DNA from: a virus
Direction: 5' to 3' (one strand)
Length of the DNA: 42,911 nucleotides
IMG/VR virus record: IMGVR_UViG_3300040801_002747
Coordinates: 1-42,911 of that record
The position numbers and the translations under genes are program-made. Under the pieces are notes generated by a model. That model did no database searches and had not been told where the DNA came from. It saw only the letters and a list, made by a program, of their open reading frames with translations. The first letter of the stretch is position 1, and the number at the start of each line of letters is the position of its first letter. Below are positions 7,762 to 26,960 of the stretch, in pieces.

Positions 7762-7793
7762 CACTAGGGTCTTACTCTATACACAAAGTGTTG

Positions 7794-7829
7794 TATAATA
7801 GTTCTATCAACTACTTACGGAACAATACA
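7794..7829 (+). promoter_or_regulatory. Conserved-leader promoter, copy 1
   Basis: TATAAT 7794-7799, N6 AGTTCT, then ATCAACTA from the predicted +1 at 7806. GTTC (before +1) and GAAC (7819-7822) can pair in read-through RNA. An upstream imperfect repeat TATACAC/GTGTTGTATA spans the -10 region. Confidence 0.7.
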
Positions 7830-8348
7830 ATGGATCTTCAAACGATAATTAATAATAACATCAATGGAGCAACATTCGTTTCTTTAGATGTCACAACCGT
7901 ACCAACAGTTCGGAAGACAGTAGACACCGAAGATGGTCGTGAGCCGAATGCTCACTTCGGTCGTGTGCGCAAACACACCCAGGGTATGACTGTGATGTTG
8001 TTTCAAAATAAAAAATCACATGGCTACATGAACATGGTTAAGCGCCGCCTTGAGAAGGAAGGCAAGGATCCATCAACATTTGAACTAAGTGAGCGTAAGT
8101 GGGGTGTTCGTTTGCAAGACCAACCATTTGTTGAGCATAAAGGCGAATTGTACCTCGAAGCAATCATGCTGAATGCTGGGACAACTCACTACACGATTGA
8201 TGGCGTAGAAGTTGATAAGGACGACATTGTTGGACTCAGCAAGCCACGTGAAGCTGAACAAGGTGGTTTGGATGATAAAGTTATCCTTCGTACTTTCAAA
8301 ACAGATTCTATCACTCAAATCACAATCGGAAAAGTAACTCACAAGTGA
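7830..8348 (+). CDS. Hypothetical phage protein, 172 aa
   Basis: The ATG at 7830 is chosen because it follows the conserved leader; the longer frame from 7788 runs through the promoter. Soluble alpha/beta protein, no membrane segments. The stretch FVSLDVTTVPTVRKT near the N-terminus and two Trp/Gln motifs are visible, but I recognise no family. It begins a four-gene unit with tight overlaps (8345, 8503, 8683). Confidence 0.7.
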   Translation: MDLQTIINNNINGATFVSLDVTTVPTVRKTVDTEDGREPNAHFGRVRKHTQGMTVMLFQNKKSHGYMNMVKRRLEKEGKDPSTFELSERKWGVRLQDQPFVEHKGELYLEAIMLNAGTTHYTIDGVEVDKDDIVGLSKPREAEQGGLDDKVILRTFKTDSITQITIGKVTHK

Positions 8349-8506
8349 TTTTATACACATTGCTAGCAGTAAACGTACTGCTCACATTCTTCTTGTATCG
8401 TCGCGTGAACGTTGTTGCGAAGCATCTAAGCGACAATCAAGTCAGGATCGCCGATGCTATCACGACTGTGGTCAATGAGCTCGAGAAAGTGGAGGTCAAA
8501 GGATGA
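8345..8506 (+). CDS. 53-aa single-pass membrane protein
   Basis: The GTG start overlaps the preceding stop (GTGA). Residues about 2-18 (ILYTLLAVNVLLTFFLY) form a membrane helix followed by RR and a charged amphipathic helix. The tight overlap with the prepilin-like gene suggests that the two act together. Holin/antiholin or inner-membrane anchor are possible; none can be proven. Confidence 0.65.
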   Translation: MILYTLLAVNVLLTFFLYRRVNVVAKHLSDNQVRIADAITTVVNELEKVEVKG

Positions 8507-8676
8507 ATAACAATAAACAAAACGGCTTTACTCTGATCGAACTGATCGTTGTCATTGCAGTCATTGTTGTACTGATTGCGGTAGTCGTTGCAGCATTCGC
8601 AGGCGGCTTTATGACAGTGTACAAGGTTCTTGGTGTTATCATCTTGATCCTGATCATCTTCAAACTTTTACGGTAA
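8503..8676 (+). CDS. Type IV prepilin-like 57-aa protein
   Basis: The ATG overlaps the previous stop (ATGA). Residues 8-26 read GFTLIELIVVIAVIVVLIA: the textbook prepilin peptidase site (cleavage after Gly8, Phe+1, Glu+5) followed by the pilin N-terminal helix. A second hydrophobic helix (about residues 38-54) ends FKLLR. There is no globular pilin head. It would enter the host inner membrane, possibly be processed by PilD, and might poison or cap type IV pilus or type II secretion assembly. Motif seen; role inferred. Confidence 0.8.
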   Translation: MNNNKQNGFTLIELIVVIAVIVVLIAVVVAAFAGGFMTVYKVLGVIILILIIFKLLR

Positions 8677-8682
8677 AATAAA

Positions 8683-9069
8683 ATGACCATTAATACAAGA
8701 CGACAAGAAATGTTCGACATGGCCCTGATTGGCGTTATCAATCAAGGGGTACACTCTGCAAGAAAGAGTCGCGATGGCAAGTATTTGCAAGGTTCGAATC
8801 CGTGTCAGTACCGTTTGGGCGACCAAGCAGACTCTCTCATTCGTTGTGGCATTGGCCATCTCATCCCTGACAATAGGTACGACCCTGATATGGAAGGCAT
8901 TGACGTTATTTCATTGAATGAGGACTACGAGTTGTTTATCGAGAGTGATATTAGTTTTCTCATCAGTATACAAACAGCTCATGATCTGTCTCTCGATGAA
9001 GGCATGGACGGTTATGTCAACAGAATGAAACGTGTTGCTGAAATATATAATCTGACATACCCAGAATAA
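8683..9069 (+). CDS. Hypothetical protein with CQYR and GIGHLIPDNRY motifs
   Basis: 128 aa, ATG six bases after the preceding stop. Contains NPCQYR and CGIGHLIPDNRY, a pairing I associate with an uncharacterised family of phage proteins, then a helical C-terminus. Its DNA also carries a T-loop-like GGTTCGAATCC, considered and rejected as tRNA. Function unknown. Confidence 0.7.
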   Translation: MTINTRRQEMFDMALIGVINQGVHSARKSRDGKYLQGSNPCQYRLGDQADSLIRCGIGHLIPDNRYDPDMEGIDVISLNEDYELFIESDISFLISIQTAHDLSLDEGMDGYVNRMKRVAEIYNLTYPE

Positions 9070-9102
9070 GCACTAGGGTATTGTCTCTGTTGTTGGATGT
9101 TG

Positions 9103-9140
9103 TATAATAGTTCTATCTTATAACAACACTGTATAATAAA
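9103..9140 (+). promoter_or_regulatory. Conserved-leader promoter, copy 2
   Basis: TATAAT 9103-9108, N6 AGTTCT, then ATC from +1 at 9115. A TTGTCT -35-like box is at 9081-9086. TGTTGTATAA around the -10 and TTATAACAACA downstream form a near-perfect inverted repeat. A second TATAAT (9132-9137) lies just before the ATG. Confidence 0.6.
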
Positions 9141-10028
9141 ATGATCACATTGAATGAAATGCCCCGAGACGGTTACCGTTGGTTGTATGTGTATACTACA
9201 CCATCCATGCGTGAAAAGCGTATTGTTAAAATAGGTGACACCAAGCGTGAAGTAATGACACGTGTCAAGGAACAGGACAGCACTTCAACATTCGAAGAAA
9301 TTATCGTCATTATGACGTTGGAAATTCCTTTCAGCTTGGATGGTAAAGAATTCCGTGACCATGCAATACACCATGCTCTTGAGATGGACGGTCGTCTTCG
9401 ACCACGAAGCAATCGTGAGTTCTTTGTTATTGATTCTGAAACAGAAGAAGAGCAGTGTGCCGTCATCCGTGACATCGTTCAGAAGACCTGTCAGGATATC
9501 AACTCCGGCCGTGTAGAACTCGAGTTGACACCGGATCAATATGAGTCCATGGAAGATGCACTTGATGCTTTTGAGAGTGGCGCTCAAACACAACTGATGG
9601 AGTTTGCACCACGCTTCGGTAAAACCATCTGGACTATGGCTCTGCACTGTTGTATTGACGAGCAGGTGATGGTTGTGGCTACTTATTGGTTGAGTGCATT
9701 GACCAGCTTCAAAACGGATATTACAAAGTTCACCAACTTTGTTGACATGGTGTACCTCGAGGCAAATGCTGATGATTTTGAAGATACGTTTGCTGCTGCA
9801 ATTGCTACTGGCAAAAAGGTTGTTGTGGGTGTTAGCTTGTACAAGAATGCTGGCGGCTTGGAAACCAAAGTAGAAGACTTGTCAACGTTGGTTGACTTTG
9901 AAGACAAGTGGATCTACGTTGATGAAGCAGACTTTGGTGCTCACAAAGAAGGACAGACCCAAATAATTGATGCTTTGTGCCCAGACCGTGCACTACGAGC
10001 TGCCCCTCTCACCCTATCAGTTGTATAA
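9141..10028 (+). CDS. Helicase N-terminal half with T5orf172-like domain (split gene)
   Basis: 295 aa. Residues about 12-100 resemble the T5orf172/GIY-YIG-like domain (LYVYTTP, then VKIGDTKREVMTRVKEQ). Residues about 130-290 are the first RecA-like lobe of a superfamily 2 helicase: a Q-like element, Walker A APRFGKT (156-162), and VDEAD (260-264). It stops at TAA (10026-10028) before motif III. The next ORF is in the same frame and supplies the second lobe. The two products probably associate; alternatively the split is recent and the enzyme is disabled. Confidence 0.75.
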   Translation: MITLNEMPRDGYRWLYVYTTPSMREKRIVKIGDTKREVMTRVKEQDSTSTFEEIIVIMTLEIPFSLDGKEFRDHAIHHALEMDGRLRPRSNREFFVIDSETEEEQCAVIRDIVQKTCQDINSGRVELELTPDQYESMEDALDAFESGAQTQLMEFAPRFGKTIWTMALHCCIDEQVMVVATYWLSALTSFKTDITKFTNFVDMVYLEANADDFEDTFAAAIATGKKVVVGVSLYKNAGGLETKVEDLSTLVDFEDKWIYVDEADFGAHKEGQTQIIDALCPDRALRAAPLTLSVV

Positions 10029-10061: not shown

Positions 10062-11483
10062 ATGACTAAAATTATACTTGGAACCGGAACAAATGCAGCA
10101 CGAGCTGGCAGCTTGTATGACGTTGACCACTACCGTGCTGTAACATACTTCGACATGCTGATGACCAAAGGTCGATTGGCAAACGGTGAAACGGTATACA
10201 CACCACGTCGTGAGCTGCCTTTCAAGATGGCAACCAACCTCACTCGTATTCCTGATGTTGAATTCTATCAAGCGTACTTCCCGTTGGTTCAGTGGGATGA
10301 GGCTAACCCATCTTGGAACAAAGCGATTGAGAATGTAACCAAAGCAAAAGGTTTCATCTCTTCCATATTCGGTGCTTTGTTGAACGGTGAAGGTGAGCGT
10401 GAATACATGCACCTGGAGCAGATGTTTGGTTCAGCTCCAACAGGTATCATGATCTGGTTGCCTGAAACAGGTTCAAAGAAGAAAGTTGATGCATTTGTTA
10501 AGTTGTTGAAGCCTATAGCCAATGAGTGGGATGTTATGGCTCTCCACGGTGGTGTCTCAAACAACCGTGATGCTGAAGAAAAGGTAAAGAAGGCTCATGC
10601 ACTTGCCATCCGTAACGGGAAGCGTGGTGTAATTGTTTGTGCAATGAAGATGGGAGCACGTTCTTTCAGCATCCCTACAATTGACACAGTCATCCTGGCT
10701 TATGACAACGGTTCTGCTGCAGGTACTGCTCAAAAGATGTCACGATGCTTGACACCATACTCAAATGGACTGATCAAAGTAGGCCGCGTGTTGAGTATTG
10801 CTGTTGACCCTTCACGTGAAGACAAGATCGACGCTCCTATACTGGAAACTGCGGCTAAGTTAGCTGAAAAGAATGACATTGACATTACTGAAGCGTTACA
10901 ACAGGTCATGCGTACTCTGAACGTGTACACCATGGATCACGAGACCGGTGAGCGTATTCACGTCAACGTTGATGAGTACCTCGAAAAAGTATTGAGTGTC
11001 AACAGCCTAAGTCGTGTTATTGCAAAGACAGCTAACTTGACCACAATTCTGAGTGATGAAGCTTTGCTTGCAGGTATCCTGGGAATTACTGCTGAATCGG
11101 ATGGATTAGGCGATCATGCAGATGCTCGTGAGAAAGGTGAGAAGTTCTTGGACAAGAAGGGTAAAGTGAAGAAAGATGCTGTACCACGTGATGAAAGCGA
11201 GAAGAACTTGTTGGACACGATGAGAAAGATTGAAGCTGCTATTGAAGCTTTGACGAACAACACATCTTTCATTGTTGGCATGACAACCGAAAGCACCGTG
11301 GGGGCTGCATTGATATACATAACAGACAACTACGCTATTGAGTTTGAGCGGGAGTTTGGTGTTGATGCTATGTTTGTGCAGACATTAATTGAACGTCAGG
11401 TCATCAGTGGTCATTTGTTGGATGTGAAGGTAGCAGTTGAATTTAAGCAAATCGATACAACAAATGCTAGTTTTTGGAACTAG
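10062..11483 (+). CDS. Helicase C-terminal half (split gene)
   Basis: 473 aa, same frame as the gene before, with a new ATG after the conserved leader. It begins IILGTGTNAARA, which fits helicase motif III plus its flank (S/G-T-G). Residues about 120-260 form the second RecA lobe, with MIWLPETGSKKKVD, VMALHGG, GVIVCAMKMGARSFSIPTIDTVIL (motif V region) and QKMSRCL (motif VI-like, Gln and Arg). The C-terminal 200 residues are helical. Expected role: the ATP-dependent motor half of a nuclease-helicase or DNA-processing enzyme. Confidence 0.75.
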   Translation: MTKIILGTGTNAARAGSLYDVDHYRAVTYFDMLMTKGRLANGETVYTPRRELPFKMATNLTRIPDVEFYQAYFPLVQWDEANPSWNKAIENVTKAKGFISSIFGALLNGEGEREYMHLEQMFGSAPTGIMIWLPETGSKKKVDAFVKLLKPIANEWDVMALHGGVSNNRDAEEKVKKAHALAIRNGKRGVIVCAMKMGARSFSIPTIDTVILAYDNGSAAGTAQKMSRCLTPYSNGLIKVGRVLSIAVDPSREDKIDAPILETAAKLAEKNDIDITEALQQVMRTLNVYTMDHETGERIHVNVDEYLEKVLSVNSLSRVIAKTANLTTILSDEALLAGILGITAESDGLGDHADAREKGEKFLDKKGKVKKDAVPRDESEKNLLDTMRKIEAAIEALTNNTSFIVGMTTESTVGAALIYITDNYAIEFEREFGVDAMFVQTLIERQVISGHLLDVKVAVEFKQIDTTNASFWN

Positions 11484-20422: not shown

Positions 20423-21457
20423 ATGAAGAAATATGACACAGTAGTGTACATTGGTCGATTCCGACCACCCCACCTTGCTCACATTGAAACAATGAAGCGA
20501 GCATTGGAAGCAGGCAACCAGTTGTTGGTTATCGTTGGTTCTGCGAATCAGCCCAGGACTGTAAAAAATCCTTGGACTGTAAGTGAAGTTGAAGTGATGA
20601 TCAAGTCTTCGCTTCCCGAAGATGTACGGGAGCGTGTAATGGTATTACCTCTGCGGGATACAGCATACAACGACCAAGCGTGGGTTCAACAAGTTCAAGA
20701 CAAAGTACGAGCCGTCACAGAACCATCAGATGTAGTTGGTCTCATTGGCCACTCAAAGGATGAATCATCCTACTACCTGAAGATGTTCCCACAATGGGAT
20801 CACATCGAGATGGAAAACATCAACGACATCCATGCTACAGACATTCGCAATGCTTACTTCGAAGCGAATGGCGACATGACGAACTTTGATTTTAAGATTG
20901 GTCGTAACCTTCCACCAGCCATTCATGACTTCATGAAAGCATTTGCTCATACCAGCGACTACGAAACCCTGGTCAATGAGTACAAGTTTCTGGTTGCTCA
21001 TGCAAAGATGTGGGAAGATGCACCATACCCACCCATGTTCATCACGACAGATGCTGTTGTTGTTCAGTCTGGCCATGTACTTTTGGTAAAGCGTCGCGCT
21101 GAACCTGGTAAGAATTTGTGGGCGATTCCTGGAGGTTATCTGAATCAAAAAGAGTACATCATTGATGGTTTGATTCGAGAGCTGCGTGAAGAAACAATGC
21201 TGAAGGTGCCGGGTCCTGTCCTTCGTGGTTCTATCAAATACACCGGCGTGTATGATGCTCCAGATAGAAGTCCCCGTGGTCGTATTGTTACTCATGCTTC
21301 ACTGATTGAATTGCCAGCTGGCCCGTTACCACCCGTCAAAGGATCAGATGATGCTGAGAAGGCCAAATGGATTCCACTGAGTGTGTTCGAGCGAATGGAA
21401 GAACAGATGTTCGAAGATCATTTCCACATCATACGAGACCTTTTGGGTAAGATGTAA
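20423..21457 (+). CDS. natV: NMN adenylyltransferase/Nudix bifunctional protein (NatV-like)
   Basis: 344 aa. N-terminal nucleotidyltransferase: GRFRPPHLAH (residues 11-20, GxFxPxHxxH) and the IHATDIRN motif near residue 135. C-terminal Nudix hydrolase, box near residues 236-258: GGYLNQKEYIIDGLIRELRE then ETML, where the usual Gly of REUXEEXGU is Met. It joins ATP to NMN to make NAD; the Nudix half likely hydrolyses ADP-ribose or NAD derivatives. KVP40 NatV has the same two-domain order. With NadV (25578) it gives a two-step route from nicotinamide to NAD. Confidence 0.92.
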   Translation: MKKYDTVVYIGRFRPPHLAHIETMKRALEAGNQLLVIVGSANQPRTVKNPWTVSEVEVMIKSSLPEDVRERVMVLPLRDTAYNDQAWVQQVQDKVRAVTEPSDVVGLIGHSKDESSYYLKMFPQWDHIEMENINDIHATDIRNAYFEANGDMTNFDFKIGRNLPPAIHDFMKAFAHTSDYETLVNEYKFLVAHAKMWEDAPYPPMFITTDAVVVQSGHVLLVKRRAEPGKNLWAIPGGYLNQKEYIIDGLIRELREETMLKVPGPVLRGSIKYTGVYDAPDRSPRGRIVTHASLIELPAGPLPPVKGSDDAEKAKWIPLSVFERMEEQMFEDHFHIIRDLLGKM

Positions 21458-23350: not shown

Positions 23351-23554
23351 ATGAGACTAGAAGACATAGCAAATGTGACGCCTGCCGTCACTGTAGATAC
23401 CAAAAATCCGATACGTGATGCGATCAGATCGCGTAAGACTGCGGGCATCAAGGCTGCATTGCTTCAGAATCAACGAAACAAGGATGGTGTCGACAATGCC
23501 CCAATTATGACGGGTGGTGGTGATATTAAGGACTGTGGGGAGCACAACCCGTGA
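23351..23554 (+). CDS. MRLEDI protein, small basic with Gly/Asp tail
   Basis: 67 aa. N-terminal MRLEDIANVTP signature, basic middle (RDAIRSRKTAGIKAALLQNQRNKDG), then NAPIMTGGGDIKDCG. It is a clear paralogue in layout of the protein at 25217 (same order AI..KK..IxA..D..N..I..G.GD). Predicted internal head or packaged protein. Confidence 0.65.
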   Translation: MRLEDIANVTPAVTVDTKNPIRDAIRSRKTAGIKAALLQNQRNKDGVDNAPIMTGGGDIKDCGEHNP

Positions 23555-24315
23555 AGCTAGTGGATCTGAAGGAAGCAGCGGTTGTTAAGATGATTCTCGG
23601 CAACATTCCATTCATTAAACGAAAGGACACCACAACACCTGTTGATTTCCGAAAACTCAAGTATCTTGGGTCAGGTGTTGAAGCTGACGTATATGGAGCT
23701 ACGAAAGCTGGCAAGGTGGTTAAAATATTGAGATTCCCTCAAGGGTTTGATTATAACGGAGTTCAGAATAATCCTTTCCTACATTATGTGTCGATGTGTT
23801 TGCATAATGTTAGTAACCCATACTTCCCAAAGTTCATGAGCGCGAAGGTGTATGAGATTCCATTCAAATCAGATAAACAATCTGACAACAACACCATGCG
23901 TGACGAGATGGATCGTGACATGACTGTTGACCACCCCGATCGACCATCAGACTTCATGTTGATTGTTATAATGGAACACTTACTCGAGCTTGATGAAATC
24001 GACTTGGATGATGGCGAGCGCGTGTTCAATGAACATGGAATGACGCTTGATGCCACTGATGCTGAAATAGATACCAACAAACGTGGTGATAAAGGATACA
24101 TATCACTCCGATCATTGGGCATGGACAATAAGAATCTGAAACGTGTACTCAATAATACAAACAATCCTGAGTTCCACGACGCTCTCAAGAAACTGGCTCC
24201 ACTGTTCAAACGATTTGGTGGTGATACGCACTCTGGAAATTTGATGTTCCGTAGTGTTGGTGATGGTTATCAACTTGTATTCACTGACCCACTATACCCC
24301 GAGGAGTTGCACTAA
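23551..24315 (+). CDS. Kinase-fold protein A with MKLVDL N-terminus
   Basis: 254 aa, GTG start overlapping the previous stop (GTGA). After the MKLVDLKEAA signature comes a nucleotide-binding loop (LGSGVEADVYGA) and the Lys of KVVKILR (VAIK-like). The catalytic-type motif GGDTHSGNLMF (HxDxxxxN-like) is followed by FTDPL in place of DFG. This is the protein/aminoglycoside kinase fold in reduced form; a pseudokinase is possible because the His-Arg-Asp is degenerate. The paralogue at 24506 has the same motifs. If the signature is a capsid-targeting peptide, it would be injected with the genome. Confidence 0.7.
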   Translation: MKLVDLKEAAVVKMILGNIPFIKRKDTTTPVDFRKLKYLGSGVEADVYGATKAGKVVKILRFPQGFDYNGVQNNPFLHYVSMCLHNVSNPYFPKFMSAKVYEIPFKSDKQSDNNTMRDEMDRDMTVDHPDRPSDFMLIVIMEHLLELDEIDLDDGERVFNEHGMTLDATDAEIDTNKRGDKGYISLRSLGMDNKNLKRVLNNTNNPEFHDALKKLAPLFKRFGGDTHSGNLMFRSVGDGYQLVFTDPLYPEELH

Positions 24316-24509
24316 TGAAACTAAAAGACATTATGCTGGAGGCTGGAGTTCAAGGCGTCAAGAGCAACAAGAAAAAGAAGAAAAGGAAAAAGCCAACCAC
24401 GATTGTCGGTTATGGTGGCCTTGGTGGTTATGGTGCTTACACAAGTGGTATCACCGATGGTACAAATGGTGATTTCAGTTCTGGTGGTGATGGCGGAGGC
24501 GGTGAGTGA
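24315..24509 (+). CDS. MKLKDI protein, basic with Gly-rich tail
   Basis: 64 aa. MKLKDIMLEAG at the N-terminus, a poly-Lys stretch (SNKKKKKRKK), then Gly/Tyr-rich sequence ending GDGGGGE. It lies exactly between the two kinase-fold genes with one-base and four-base overlaps. IMLE followed by AG fits a T4 gp21-like protease site (Leu/Ile-X-Glu before a small residue). Probably a packaged, DNA-binding peptide; inferred. Confidence 0.65.
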   Translation: MKLKDIMLEAGVQGVKSNKKKKKRKKPTTIVGYGGLGGYGAYTSGITDGTNGDFSSGGDGGGGE

Positions 24510-25213
24510 AACTCGTTGACCTAATGGAAGCCAGGACCGTTGAACGCATTCATGGCATTCCTGTTATTGAATCTGACCCTGATGGCGTTATTAATCTTTC
24601 CAAGATGAAGCACGCTGGTTCTGGTATTGAAGGTGATGTATACTTCACAAACGATGGCAACAAAGTCATTAAGGCCGTGCGCCTCAGATATCAGGGTGGT
24701 ATTGAACATAGCCCATTTGTTGAGTTTGTTGGCCTGTGTCTTGAAAATAAGAACAACCCATACTTCCCGAAGATCCACAACGCCAAGATATACAAGATTA
24801 AGGAAAGAAATGAGAAGCACGTGACGAGTAAGAAGATGGGTCCTGTCAATGCTGCTCGTCGTCGACAGCGTGGTGAATTATCTGCGGCCAGTCCATACCT
24901 ATTGGTCGTTACAATGGAAACGTTGGCCCCCATCGCCCGTAAAGATAAAGATAAGATAGAGCCAATATTCAACAGCGTTGGATTGAGCCTAGAAGCTGGT
25001 AGCCACGACCACGAACACACTTCCACGATTGGCAAGGATCATTTGTCAACGGAACGTGTGATTAACAATACTTCGGATAGCAATCTGCGGGCGGCTCTAC
25101 AGCTACTGGAACCACTTTTCAAGAAGCACGGTGGTGACCTTCACATAGACAACTGGATGATGCGTGGTGACCAGATTGTTATCGTTGATCCACTACAACC
25201 ATTTTTGGGATAA
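24506..25213 (+). CDS. Kinase-fold protein B with MKLVDL N-terminus
   Basis: 235 aa, GTG start overlapping the previous stop. It repeats the plan of kinase A: MKLVDLMEAR, GSGIEGDVYFT, KVIKAVR, then ENKNNPYFPKIHNAKIYKI, LLVVTMETL, and GGDLHIDNWMM with VDPL. Two adjacent diverged paralogues suggest duplication followed by specialisation. The role could be phosphorylation of a host target or, if inactive, binding one. Confidence 0.7.
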   Translation: MKLVDLMEARTVERIHGIPVIESDPDGVINLSKMKHAGSGIEGDVYFTNDGNKVIKAVRLRYQGGIEHSPFVEFVGLCLENKNNPYFPKIHNAKIYKIKERNEKHVTSKKMGPVNAARRRQRGELSAASPYLLVVTMETLAPIARKDKDKIEPIFNSVGLSLEAGSHDHEHTSTIGKDHLSTERVINNTSDSNLRAALQLLEPLFKKHGGDLHIDNWMMRGDQIVIVDPLQPFLG

Positions 25214-25577: not shown

Positions 25578-26960
25578 ATGCAAAAAAATATTATTTTAAA
25601 CACCGATTCATACAAAGCCAGCCAATGGGTACAATACCCACCAAACACAACAAGTGTTTCCTCTTACATAGAGGCACGAGGCGGCGAATTCGAAGAGACA
25701 GTTTTCTTCGGCCTTCAGATGTTCATCAAAGAATATCTCACTACCCCTATCACCACTGAAATGATTGACGAAGCCGAATGGTTTCTGAAAGCTCATGGCG
25801 AGCCGTTCAACCGCTCTGGATGGGAATATATTGTCAATCAACACAAAGGTCGTCTTCCGATCCGCATATCTGCTGTTCCAGAAGGCACCGTTGTACCGAC
25901 AAGCAATGTCCTGTGTCAAGTAGAGAATACTGACCCATTGTGCTTCTGGCTGACTTCTTATATCGAAACTGCCCTGTTGCGTGGTATTTGGTATGCAACC
26001 ACTGTCGCTACCAAGAGCCGTGAAACCAAGAAAGTAATTCAACAATATCTGGTTGATACAGCGGACGAAGATGCACTGGGTGGACTTCCGTTCAAACTGC
26101 ACGATTTCGGTGCTAGAGGGGTTAGTTCGTACGAATCTGCTGGCATTGGTGGTGCTGCACATCTTGTGAATTTCATGGGAACTGACACGATGACGGGAGC
26201 TCTGTTCGCGATGAAGTATTACAACGAAACTGAAGTACCTGGTTTTAGTGTTCCAGCTTCTGAACACAGCACAATTACTTCATGGATGAAGGAAGGTGAA
26301 TTAGACGCTTACAGAAATATGTTCAAGCAATTCGGCGGTGAATATCCGATCGTGTCAGTTGTCTCTGACAGCTACGATATCTACAACGCTGTTGAAAATA
26401 TGTGGGGCGGAGAATTAAAGGACATGGTAGAACAGTCCGGATCAATGTTGGTTGTCAGACCCGATTCTGGCGAGCCAGCTGAAGTTGTGGTGAAGGTAGC
26501 TCTCTTGTTGGATGCGACATTCGGTAGTACTGTCAATTCGAAAGGATACAAGGTGCTGAACAATGTTAGAATTTTACAGGGTGATGGACTAAACAACATT
26601 GGAGACTTTGTTAAAATTCTAGCTAAACTGAAAGGTTATAATTTTTCTACCGACAATGTCGTTTTTGGTCAAGGTGGTGGGCTTCTACAACAGGTGAACA
26701 GAGACACATGTAAATTTGCAATGAAGTGTTCTTCAATTACCGTCGATGGTGAACAGCGTGACGTGTACAAAGATCCTATTACCGATTCGGGTAAGCGTTC
26801 CAAGAAAGGACGCCTGGCACTCGTGGACATCAACGGTGTGTTGACTACGGTTGCTGAAGCTGAAGCTTGTGAGAATAACCTACTCGAGGTGGTTTTCGAG
26901 AACGGGAAGCTCATCAAGGATGAGACATTCGCTGACATTCGAGACCGTGCTAGCGTTTAA
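25578..26960 (+). CDS. nadV: Nicotinamide phosphoribosyltransferase (NadV)
   Basis: 460 aa, the usual length of NAMPT-type enzymes. Motifs: NTDSYKASQWVQYPPNTT (N-terminal), FHDFGARG-like HDFGARGVSS (about residue 172), GTDTMTG, VPASEHSTI, SVVSDSYD, VVRPDSGEP and GQGGGLLQ. These match the nicotinate/nicotinamide phosphoribosyltransferase fold, NadV branch. It converts nicotinamide and PRPP to NMN; NatV then makes NAD. The gene is monocistronic with a structured leader. The minus-strand membrane gene overlaps its last 81 bases. Confidence 0.93.
   Translation: MQKNIILNTDSYKASQWVQYPPNTTSVSSYIEARGGEFEETVFFGLQMFIKEYLTTPITTEMIDEAEWFLKAHGEPFNRSGWEYIVNQHKGRLPIRISAVPEGTVVPTSNVLCQVENTDPLCFWLTSYIETALLRGIWYATTVATKSRETKKVIQQYLVDTADEDALGGLPFKLHDFGARGVSSYESAGIGGAAHLVNFMGTDTMTGALFAMKYYNETEVPGFSVPASEHSTITSWMKEGELDAYRNMFKQFGGEYPIVSVVSDSYDIYNAVENMWGGELKDMVEQSGSMLVVRPDSGEPAEVVVKVALLLDATFGSTVNSKGYKVLNNVRILQGDGLNNIGDFVKILAKLKGYNFSTDNVVFGQGGGLLQQVNRDTCKFAMKCSSITVDGEQRDVYKDPITDSGKRSKKGRLALVDINGVLTTVAEAEACENNLLEVVFENGKLIKDETFADIRDRASV

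Follow-up and report, generated by a model that had tools for sequence, protein, structure and literature searches.

Type IV pilins are cut by the prepilin peptidase PilD on the cytoplasmic side of the membrane, after which the platform protein PilC takes them up. In the filament, Glu5 of one subunit is paired with the N-terminus of its neighbour, a contact that may drive docking, and tip-capping subunits lack Glu5 (PMC10191384). Tiny phage proteins that stop the pili of their host exist. PfsE (PA0721), the smallest protein of Pf4, lies with its N-terminus inside and binds PilC, and it leaves the host without pili and resistant to pilus-dependent phages (PMC8764522); D3112 Gp05 (Tip) and DMS3 Aqs1 target PilB (PMC11436027). 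On the bacterial side truncated pilins are described for the Desulfuromonadales (PMC5174107). A prepilin signal as the means by which a phage stops pili would be new. Here we examine a 57-codon gene in a 42,911 nucleotide stretch of viral DNA, which we call the window and which is the whole of its record, and we find that the gene carries a genuine type IVa prepilin signal without a head, set in a compact phage operon.

A prepilin signal without a head

The translation of the gene is MNNNKQNGFTLIELIVVIAVIVVLIAVVVAAFAGGFMTVYKVLGVIILILIIFKLLR, made up of the leader MNNNKQNG followed by FTLIELIVVIAVIVVLIAVVVAAFAGGFMTVYKVLGVIILILIIFKLLR, with G8 at -1, F9 at +1 and E13 at +5 of the cleavage site. 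The predicted mature form, FTLIELIVVIAV...FKLLR, would have 49 aa. The protein matches Pfam N_methyl PF07963 with an E-value of 2.3e-8 and 33.7 bits (cut-off 21.2), which is the only such match in the whole record, and the NCBIfam prepilin domain TIGR02532 with 27.3 bits (cut-off 16.3). A custom HMM made from 159 other prepilin N-termini gave this ORF 39.8 bits, while the runner-up among the 945 frames of the window reached 4.7 bits and 60 dinucleotide-preserving shuffles gave at best 9.9 bits; a chance origin of the motif is ruled out by these shuffle scores. The signals of a working gene are also in place. A Shine-Dalgarno sequence sits 8 nt upstream of the ATG, and the codon usage of the phage fits this frame only (+0.219), with every other frame negative.

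In type IV pilins and pseudopilins a globular head stands C-terminal to the long helix. No such head is present here, as the ORF stops at residue 57 and an unrelated gene begins 6 nt past the stop. What is found in its place is a second hydrophobic segment, with a hydropathy of 2.4-3.2 for the 15-mers beginning at residues 36-43, and its C-terminal end is KLLR. The positive charges at both ends of the protein suggest a hairpin with both termini inside (N-in/C-in). AlphaFold, run on the single sequence with no alignment, and thus blind to membranes and given no relatives as input, drew one continuous helix over residues 11-56 (pLDDT 87, pTM 0.43). A sequence-only reading of this DNA had already claimed the prepilin signal (Gly-1, Phe+1 and Glu+5), the lack of a pilin head and the translational coupling to the 53-aa gene upstream; the first is borne out by the two family models and by an HMM score far above the shuffles, the second by the stop and the unrelated gene behind it, and the third by the ATGA junction that we see between the two genes. 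It had also claimed a second hydrophobic helix, which holds as a hydrophobic segment by hydropathy and is less certain as a second transmembrane helix, given the single helix in the AlphaFold model.

The gene is the third in a tight cluster of four (Table 1). The 53-aa protein encoded before it has no match in Pfam, PHROG or NCBIfam, and the phrog_17693 protein encoded after it has weak relatives in the large myoviruses Cr30, phiM7/phiN3 and BcepSauron. Two exact copies of a repeat border the cluster, and the repeat is found again at 10022; there are 5 copies in the window at up to 3 mismatches, compared to 0.57 expected. This repeat looks like a promoter used by the phage of this record.

Table 1. 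Features of the prepilin-like gene and of the cluster that holds it (window coordinates).
Feature	Position	Strand	Evidence or remark
Promoter-like repeat TGTATAATAGTTCTAT, upstream of the cluster	7792..7807	+	Repeat search
First cluster gene	7830..8348	+	172 aa, no known family; overlaps the next gene by 4 nt
53-aa protein with N-terminal hydrophobic segment	8345..8506	+	GTG start; ATGA overlap with the next gene
Shine-Dalgarno GGAGGT of the prepilin-like gene	8489..8494	+	Sequence
Headless prepilin-like gene	8503..8676	+	57 aa; PF07963, TIGR02532, shuffle control, codon fit
Prepilin signal and first hydrophobic helix, G8 to about A33	8524..8601	+	Glu at +5 retained
Second hydrophobic segment MTVYKVLGVIILILIIFKLLR, residues 37-57, where a pilin head would be	8611..8673	+	Hydropathy
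Last cluster gene	8683..9069	+	128 aa, phrog_17693
Identical promoter-like repeat TGTATAATAGTTCTAT, upstream of the next gene and bounding the cluster	9101..9116	+	Repeat search

The record and its relatives

The 42.9-kb virus record is probably a fragment. Among named phages, the SPFH gene of the record is best matched in the Pseudomonas phages Milchi and Astolliot, the Alishewanella phages Slickus01 and Slicko01 and the Sinorhizobium phage phiN3. The prepilin gene is absent from all five of these phages, as judged by profile search, and from each of the eight relatives to which the SPFH gene led in IMG/VR. It is thus a sporadic accessory gene. IMG/VR searches that used the neighbouring proteins as single sequences, and required exact 8-residue matches, returned no relatives. 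For the NadM-Nudix gene we found a single genome match, 42% in a Pseudomonas, which is too weak for naming a host. No tRNA genes were found in the window.

Some other genes of the window can be described alongside. The window pairs a protease unfoldase, a phage ClpX (18988-20313), with a NAD salvage set of two enzymes, a bifunctional NMN adenylyltransferase/Nudix protein (20423-21457) and a nicotinate phosphoribosyltransferase (25578-26960). The gene at 23551-24315 weakly matches phrog_15752, a phage protein kinase family described as a host transcription inhibitor, and the next large gene (24506-25213) resembles a paralogue of it when judged by eye. Beyond the prepilin cluster lies a gene (9141-10028) whose T5orf172-domain protein contains RFGKT, a helicase-like motif, and the ORF after it (10062-11483) weakly matches a helicase C-terminus; from their sequences the two are possibly one split helicase gene.

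Headless prepilins in other phages

Searching for the 57-mer and its N-terminus by tblastn against phage records gave no match, but low-complexity filtering is likely to act on such a sequence, so we did not take this blank as absence and relied on profile searches instead. Three tblastn relatives of the 57-mer were set aside as full-length pilin-like proteins that share the motif only. Bare prepilins of 27-29 aa are encoded by Aeromonas Straboviridae of three genera (Chrysonvirus, Cinqassovirus and Angelvirus), in the phages phiAS5, phiWae14, Aeh1, Ah1, avDM12-TAAL, AsFcp_2, AsFcp_4 and PX29 (n=8), where the gene is placed between nrdB and nrdD. GFTLIEL is invariant across the eight peptides. 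Between diverged pairs pS rises to as much as 0.82, which is near saturation, with pN at about 0.2, and pN/pS is mostly 0.13-0.45, for the greater part 0.2-0.3, with a highest value of 0.62. These headless prepilins are demonstrably under purifying selection, since the motif is invariant while the synonymous sites are near saturation and the coding sequence is therefore being kept. Among phages related to the window, profile search turned up a 30-aa gene in Vibrio phage D479, VPHD479_0163, MNQKGFTLIELIIVIVILGIIAVGVIPALF. A 152-kb virus encodes a 44-aa prepilin that is the nearest in kind to that of the window, with its helix simply extended.

The sequence-only reading, which knew of no described phage protein of this form, is not borne out on this point as it stands, since Aeh1 ORF040c and PX29p038 are already annotated as similar to a pilin N-terminus. 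In the other six of the eight Aeromonas records the gene is left out, and most copies escape annotation because they are under 30 aa. In the literature that we searched, no phage prepilin peptide of this sort has been studied for its function.

How common short forms are can be gauged from a DNA-pattern survey of IMG/VR, which gave a sample of 74 ORFs that carry the motif and end in a stop codon. As the pattern demanded Glu5, conservation of this residue counts as evidence in the Aeromonas set only. Six of the 74 stop no more than 60 residues from the glycine, and phiAS5 and Ah1 are two of the shortest forms to come from the survey. In 27 gammaproteobacterial genomes about 1 of 153 is so short, among the matches listed and off contig edges, and this single case resembles a split Geobacter-type pilin by sequence. 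The difference (Fisher p = 0.005) compares sets found by different methods, the viral one being a sample, and enrichment of short prepilins in viruses is to be read as an indication, not a measured rate. When the protein of the window was compared with 22 other short prepilins, from a pooled list that was enriched for short forms by design and holds several near-identical Aeromonas copies, it was the only one among them with a strongly hydrophobic second segment. Similarity to the peptides of D479 and the Aeromonas phages does not extend beyond the universal prepilin motif, so that shared descent and separate capture of host pilin N-termini are indistinguishable. The neighbouring genes differ.

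Longer pilin-like genes were also seen in phages. A mini-pilin of roughly 75-95 aa recurs (L030, L032, L044, L047, L049, L083 and L104), with a small conserved domain around RCI.GYKFV.G..GQARQ..D..GKG..C, and it is found in different phage types; by eye its neighbours include an apparent T4-like UvsW-type helicase (L083) and an apparent Dam methylase (L104). Vibrio phage vB_VhaS_R31B encodes a full-length 136-aa pilin-like protein annotated as hypothetical (L265:2173-2583), and over 71 bases the N-terminal DNA of this gene shares 77.5% identity with the bare prepilin gene of D479. Cyanophages hold full-length pilin genes too, as in Synechococcus phage S-CAM7 (L024:3068-3499) and the ACG-2014f records, and some of them are annotated as pilin.

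Discussion

A role tied to the host type IV filament machinery is the most economical reading of this gene, because independent phage lineages carry headless prepilins and one group of these is under purifying selection. More specifically, the 57-aa protein could well be a pilin mimic that is matured by PilD and jams the assembly platform of the host type IV pilus or type II secretion system, a proposal that we hold tentatively. The protein would insert with its N-terminus inside, as pilins do, and would be matured by the host prepilin peptidase. Through Glu5 and its pilin-like helix the mature form might then dock as a false subunit, either on the PilC or GspF platform or at the base of the filament, and being headless and tethered to the membrane it would stall extension. 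During infection the phage could gain by keeping out pilus-dependent phages or DNA, or by shutting down type II secretion or motility. Glu5 lies buried within a transmembrane helix and is nonetheless kept, which speaks for an interaction with pilins rather than a simple anchor in the membrane. Capping of the filament, by analogy with known tip subunits, is doubtful, as those are without Glu5 yet the 57-aa protein keeps it; a subunit that has Glu5 and no head may therefore be better suited to binding the platform, or to posing as an internal subunit, than to capping the tip.

Looking at the other possible roles can help to see where this proposal is strong. One could be that the peptide is a decoy for the prepilin peptidase, which as an abundant substrate or a slowly released product would keep PilD occupied and leave host prepilins and pseudopilins unmatured. 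Such a decoy need not meet the assembly machine, the 27-29 aa forms consist almost entirely of the first helix and the site that PilD recognises, and a block of PilD would strike pili and type II secretion together. We still think it unlikely. The Glu5 of pilins is largely dispensable for cleavage and is needed for assembly, so that a pure decoy would not be expected to keep it; a decoy would also require high expression. A generic small phage membrane protein, such as a holin-like hairpin or an envelope-stress or lysis-timing factor that captured a prepilin N-terminus as its anchor, is not a likely account either. Two hydrophobic segments and a basic C-terminus would suit an N-in/C-in hairpin, and the overlapping neighbour at 8345-8506 is likewise a small membrane protein. 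However, an anchor needs no Gly-1, Phe+1 and Glu+5 all kept, and in the Aeromonas phages the exact motif is kept under selection. A two-helix holin in particular we set low, given the prepilin motif and the lack of an adjoining endolysin or lysis cassette, the phrog_17001 endolysin (1806-2612) being 6 kb distant.

It may also be asked whether the peptide joins host filaments as a functional subunit and alters or aids them rather than blocking them. This has precedents in the truncated pilins described for the Desulfuromonadales (PMC5174107) and in the full-length pilins that occur in cyanophages and a Vibrio phage, but no partner head protein is encoded alongside, and the second segment is hydrophobic where the second half of a pilin helix is amphipathic; we consider such a role very unlikely. 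That the gene is what remains of a captured host pilin gene in decay is hardly credible. Its sporadic distribution and short length would fit decay, but no remnant of a head lies downstream, where a gene of a phage family follows at once, the ribosome-binding site is strong, the codon usage is that of the phage, and the headless forms of the Aeromonas phages are under purifying selection. We rejected a pseudogene on the missing head remnant and the good gene signals.

If the pilin mimic proposal is extended to the other phages, it is conceivable, though we would lean against it, that headless pilins are a distinct class of counter-host effectors, evolved independently in several large-phage lineages, which as false subunits would exploit the prepilin peptidase and the platform of the host and so jam its type IV filament machines, the form in the window being a membrane-tethered one. 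If true, this would be a small and overlooked effector class acting by subunit mimicry, it could provide genetic tools that act at the platform step to halt type IV pili and type II secretion, and the prediction could be tested in isolated Aeromonas and Vibrio phages.

Comparison with known systems

With type IVa pilins and type II pseudopilins (PF07963, TIGR02532) the protein shares the class III signal peptide, Phe+1, Glu+5 and a hydrophobic first helix, and it differs from them in having no head, a mature length of 49 aa and a hydrophobic second half. The truncated pilin of the Geobacter type (PilA-N) also has a prepilin signal with little or no head; it is bacterial, its second half is not hydrophobic and it has a partner protein, whereas beside the 57-aa ORF there is no gene for the missing head and the neighbours match no pilin family. 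PfsE, of the Pseudomonas filamentous phage Pf4, is likewise a tiny phage protein of the inner membrane, it lies N-in as the 57-aa protein would, and the proposed target class, the type IV pilus platform, is the same. It comes from a filamentous temperate phage and is not homologous, and the conserved aromatic cluster YAWGW of PfsE-type PilC inhibitors is absent from the 57-aa protein. PfsE, though the closest precedent by function, can be called a functional analogue only, as it has no prepilin signal. D479 VPHD479_0163 is, like the gene in the window, a bare prepilin in a large phage, but it has no second hydrophobic segment, and its place is on the opposite strand, with tail-fibre genes to one side and head genes to the other. 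The Aeromonas kind, of which Aeh1 ORF040c is an example, is defined by a phage gene with a prepilin signal, Glu5 and no head, and all of these are found in the 57-aa gene, as are the bare prepilin signal with its helix, the small size and the dense operon of a large myovirus. The Aeromonas peptides differ in ending right after the first helix, at 27-29 aa with no second hydrophobic segment, and in their place between nrdB and nrdD.
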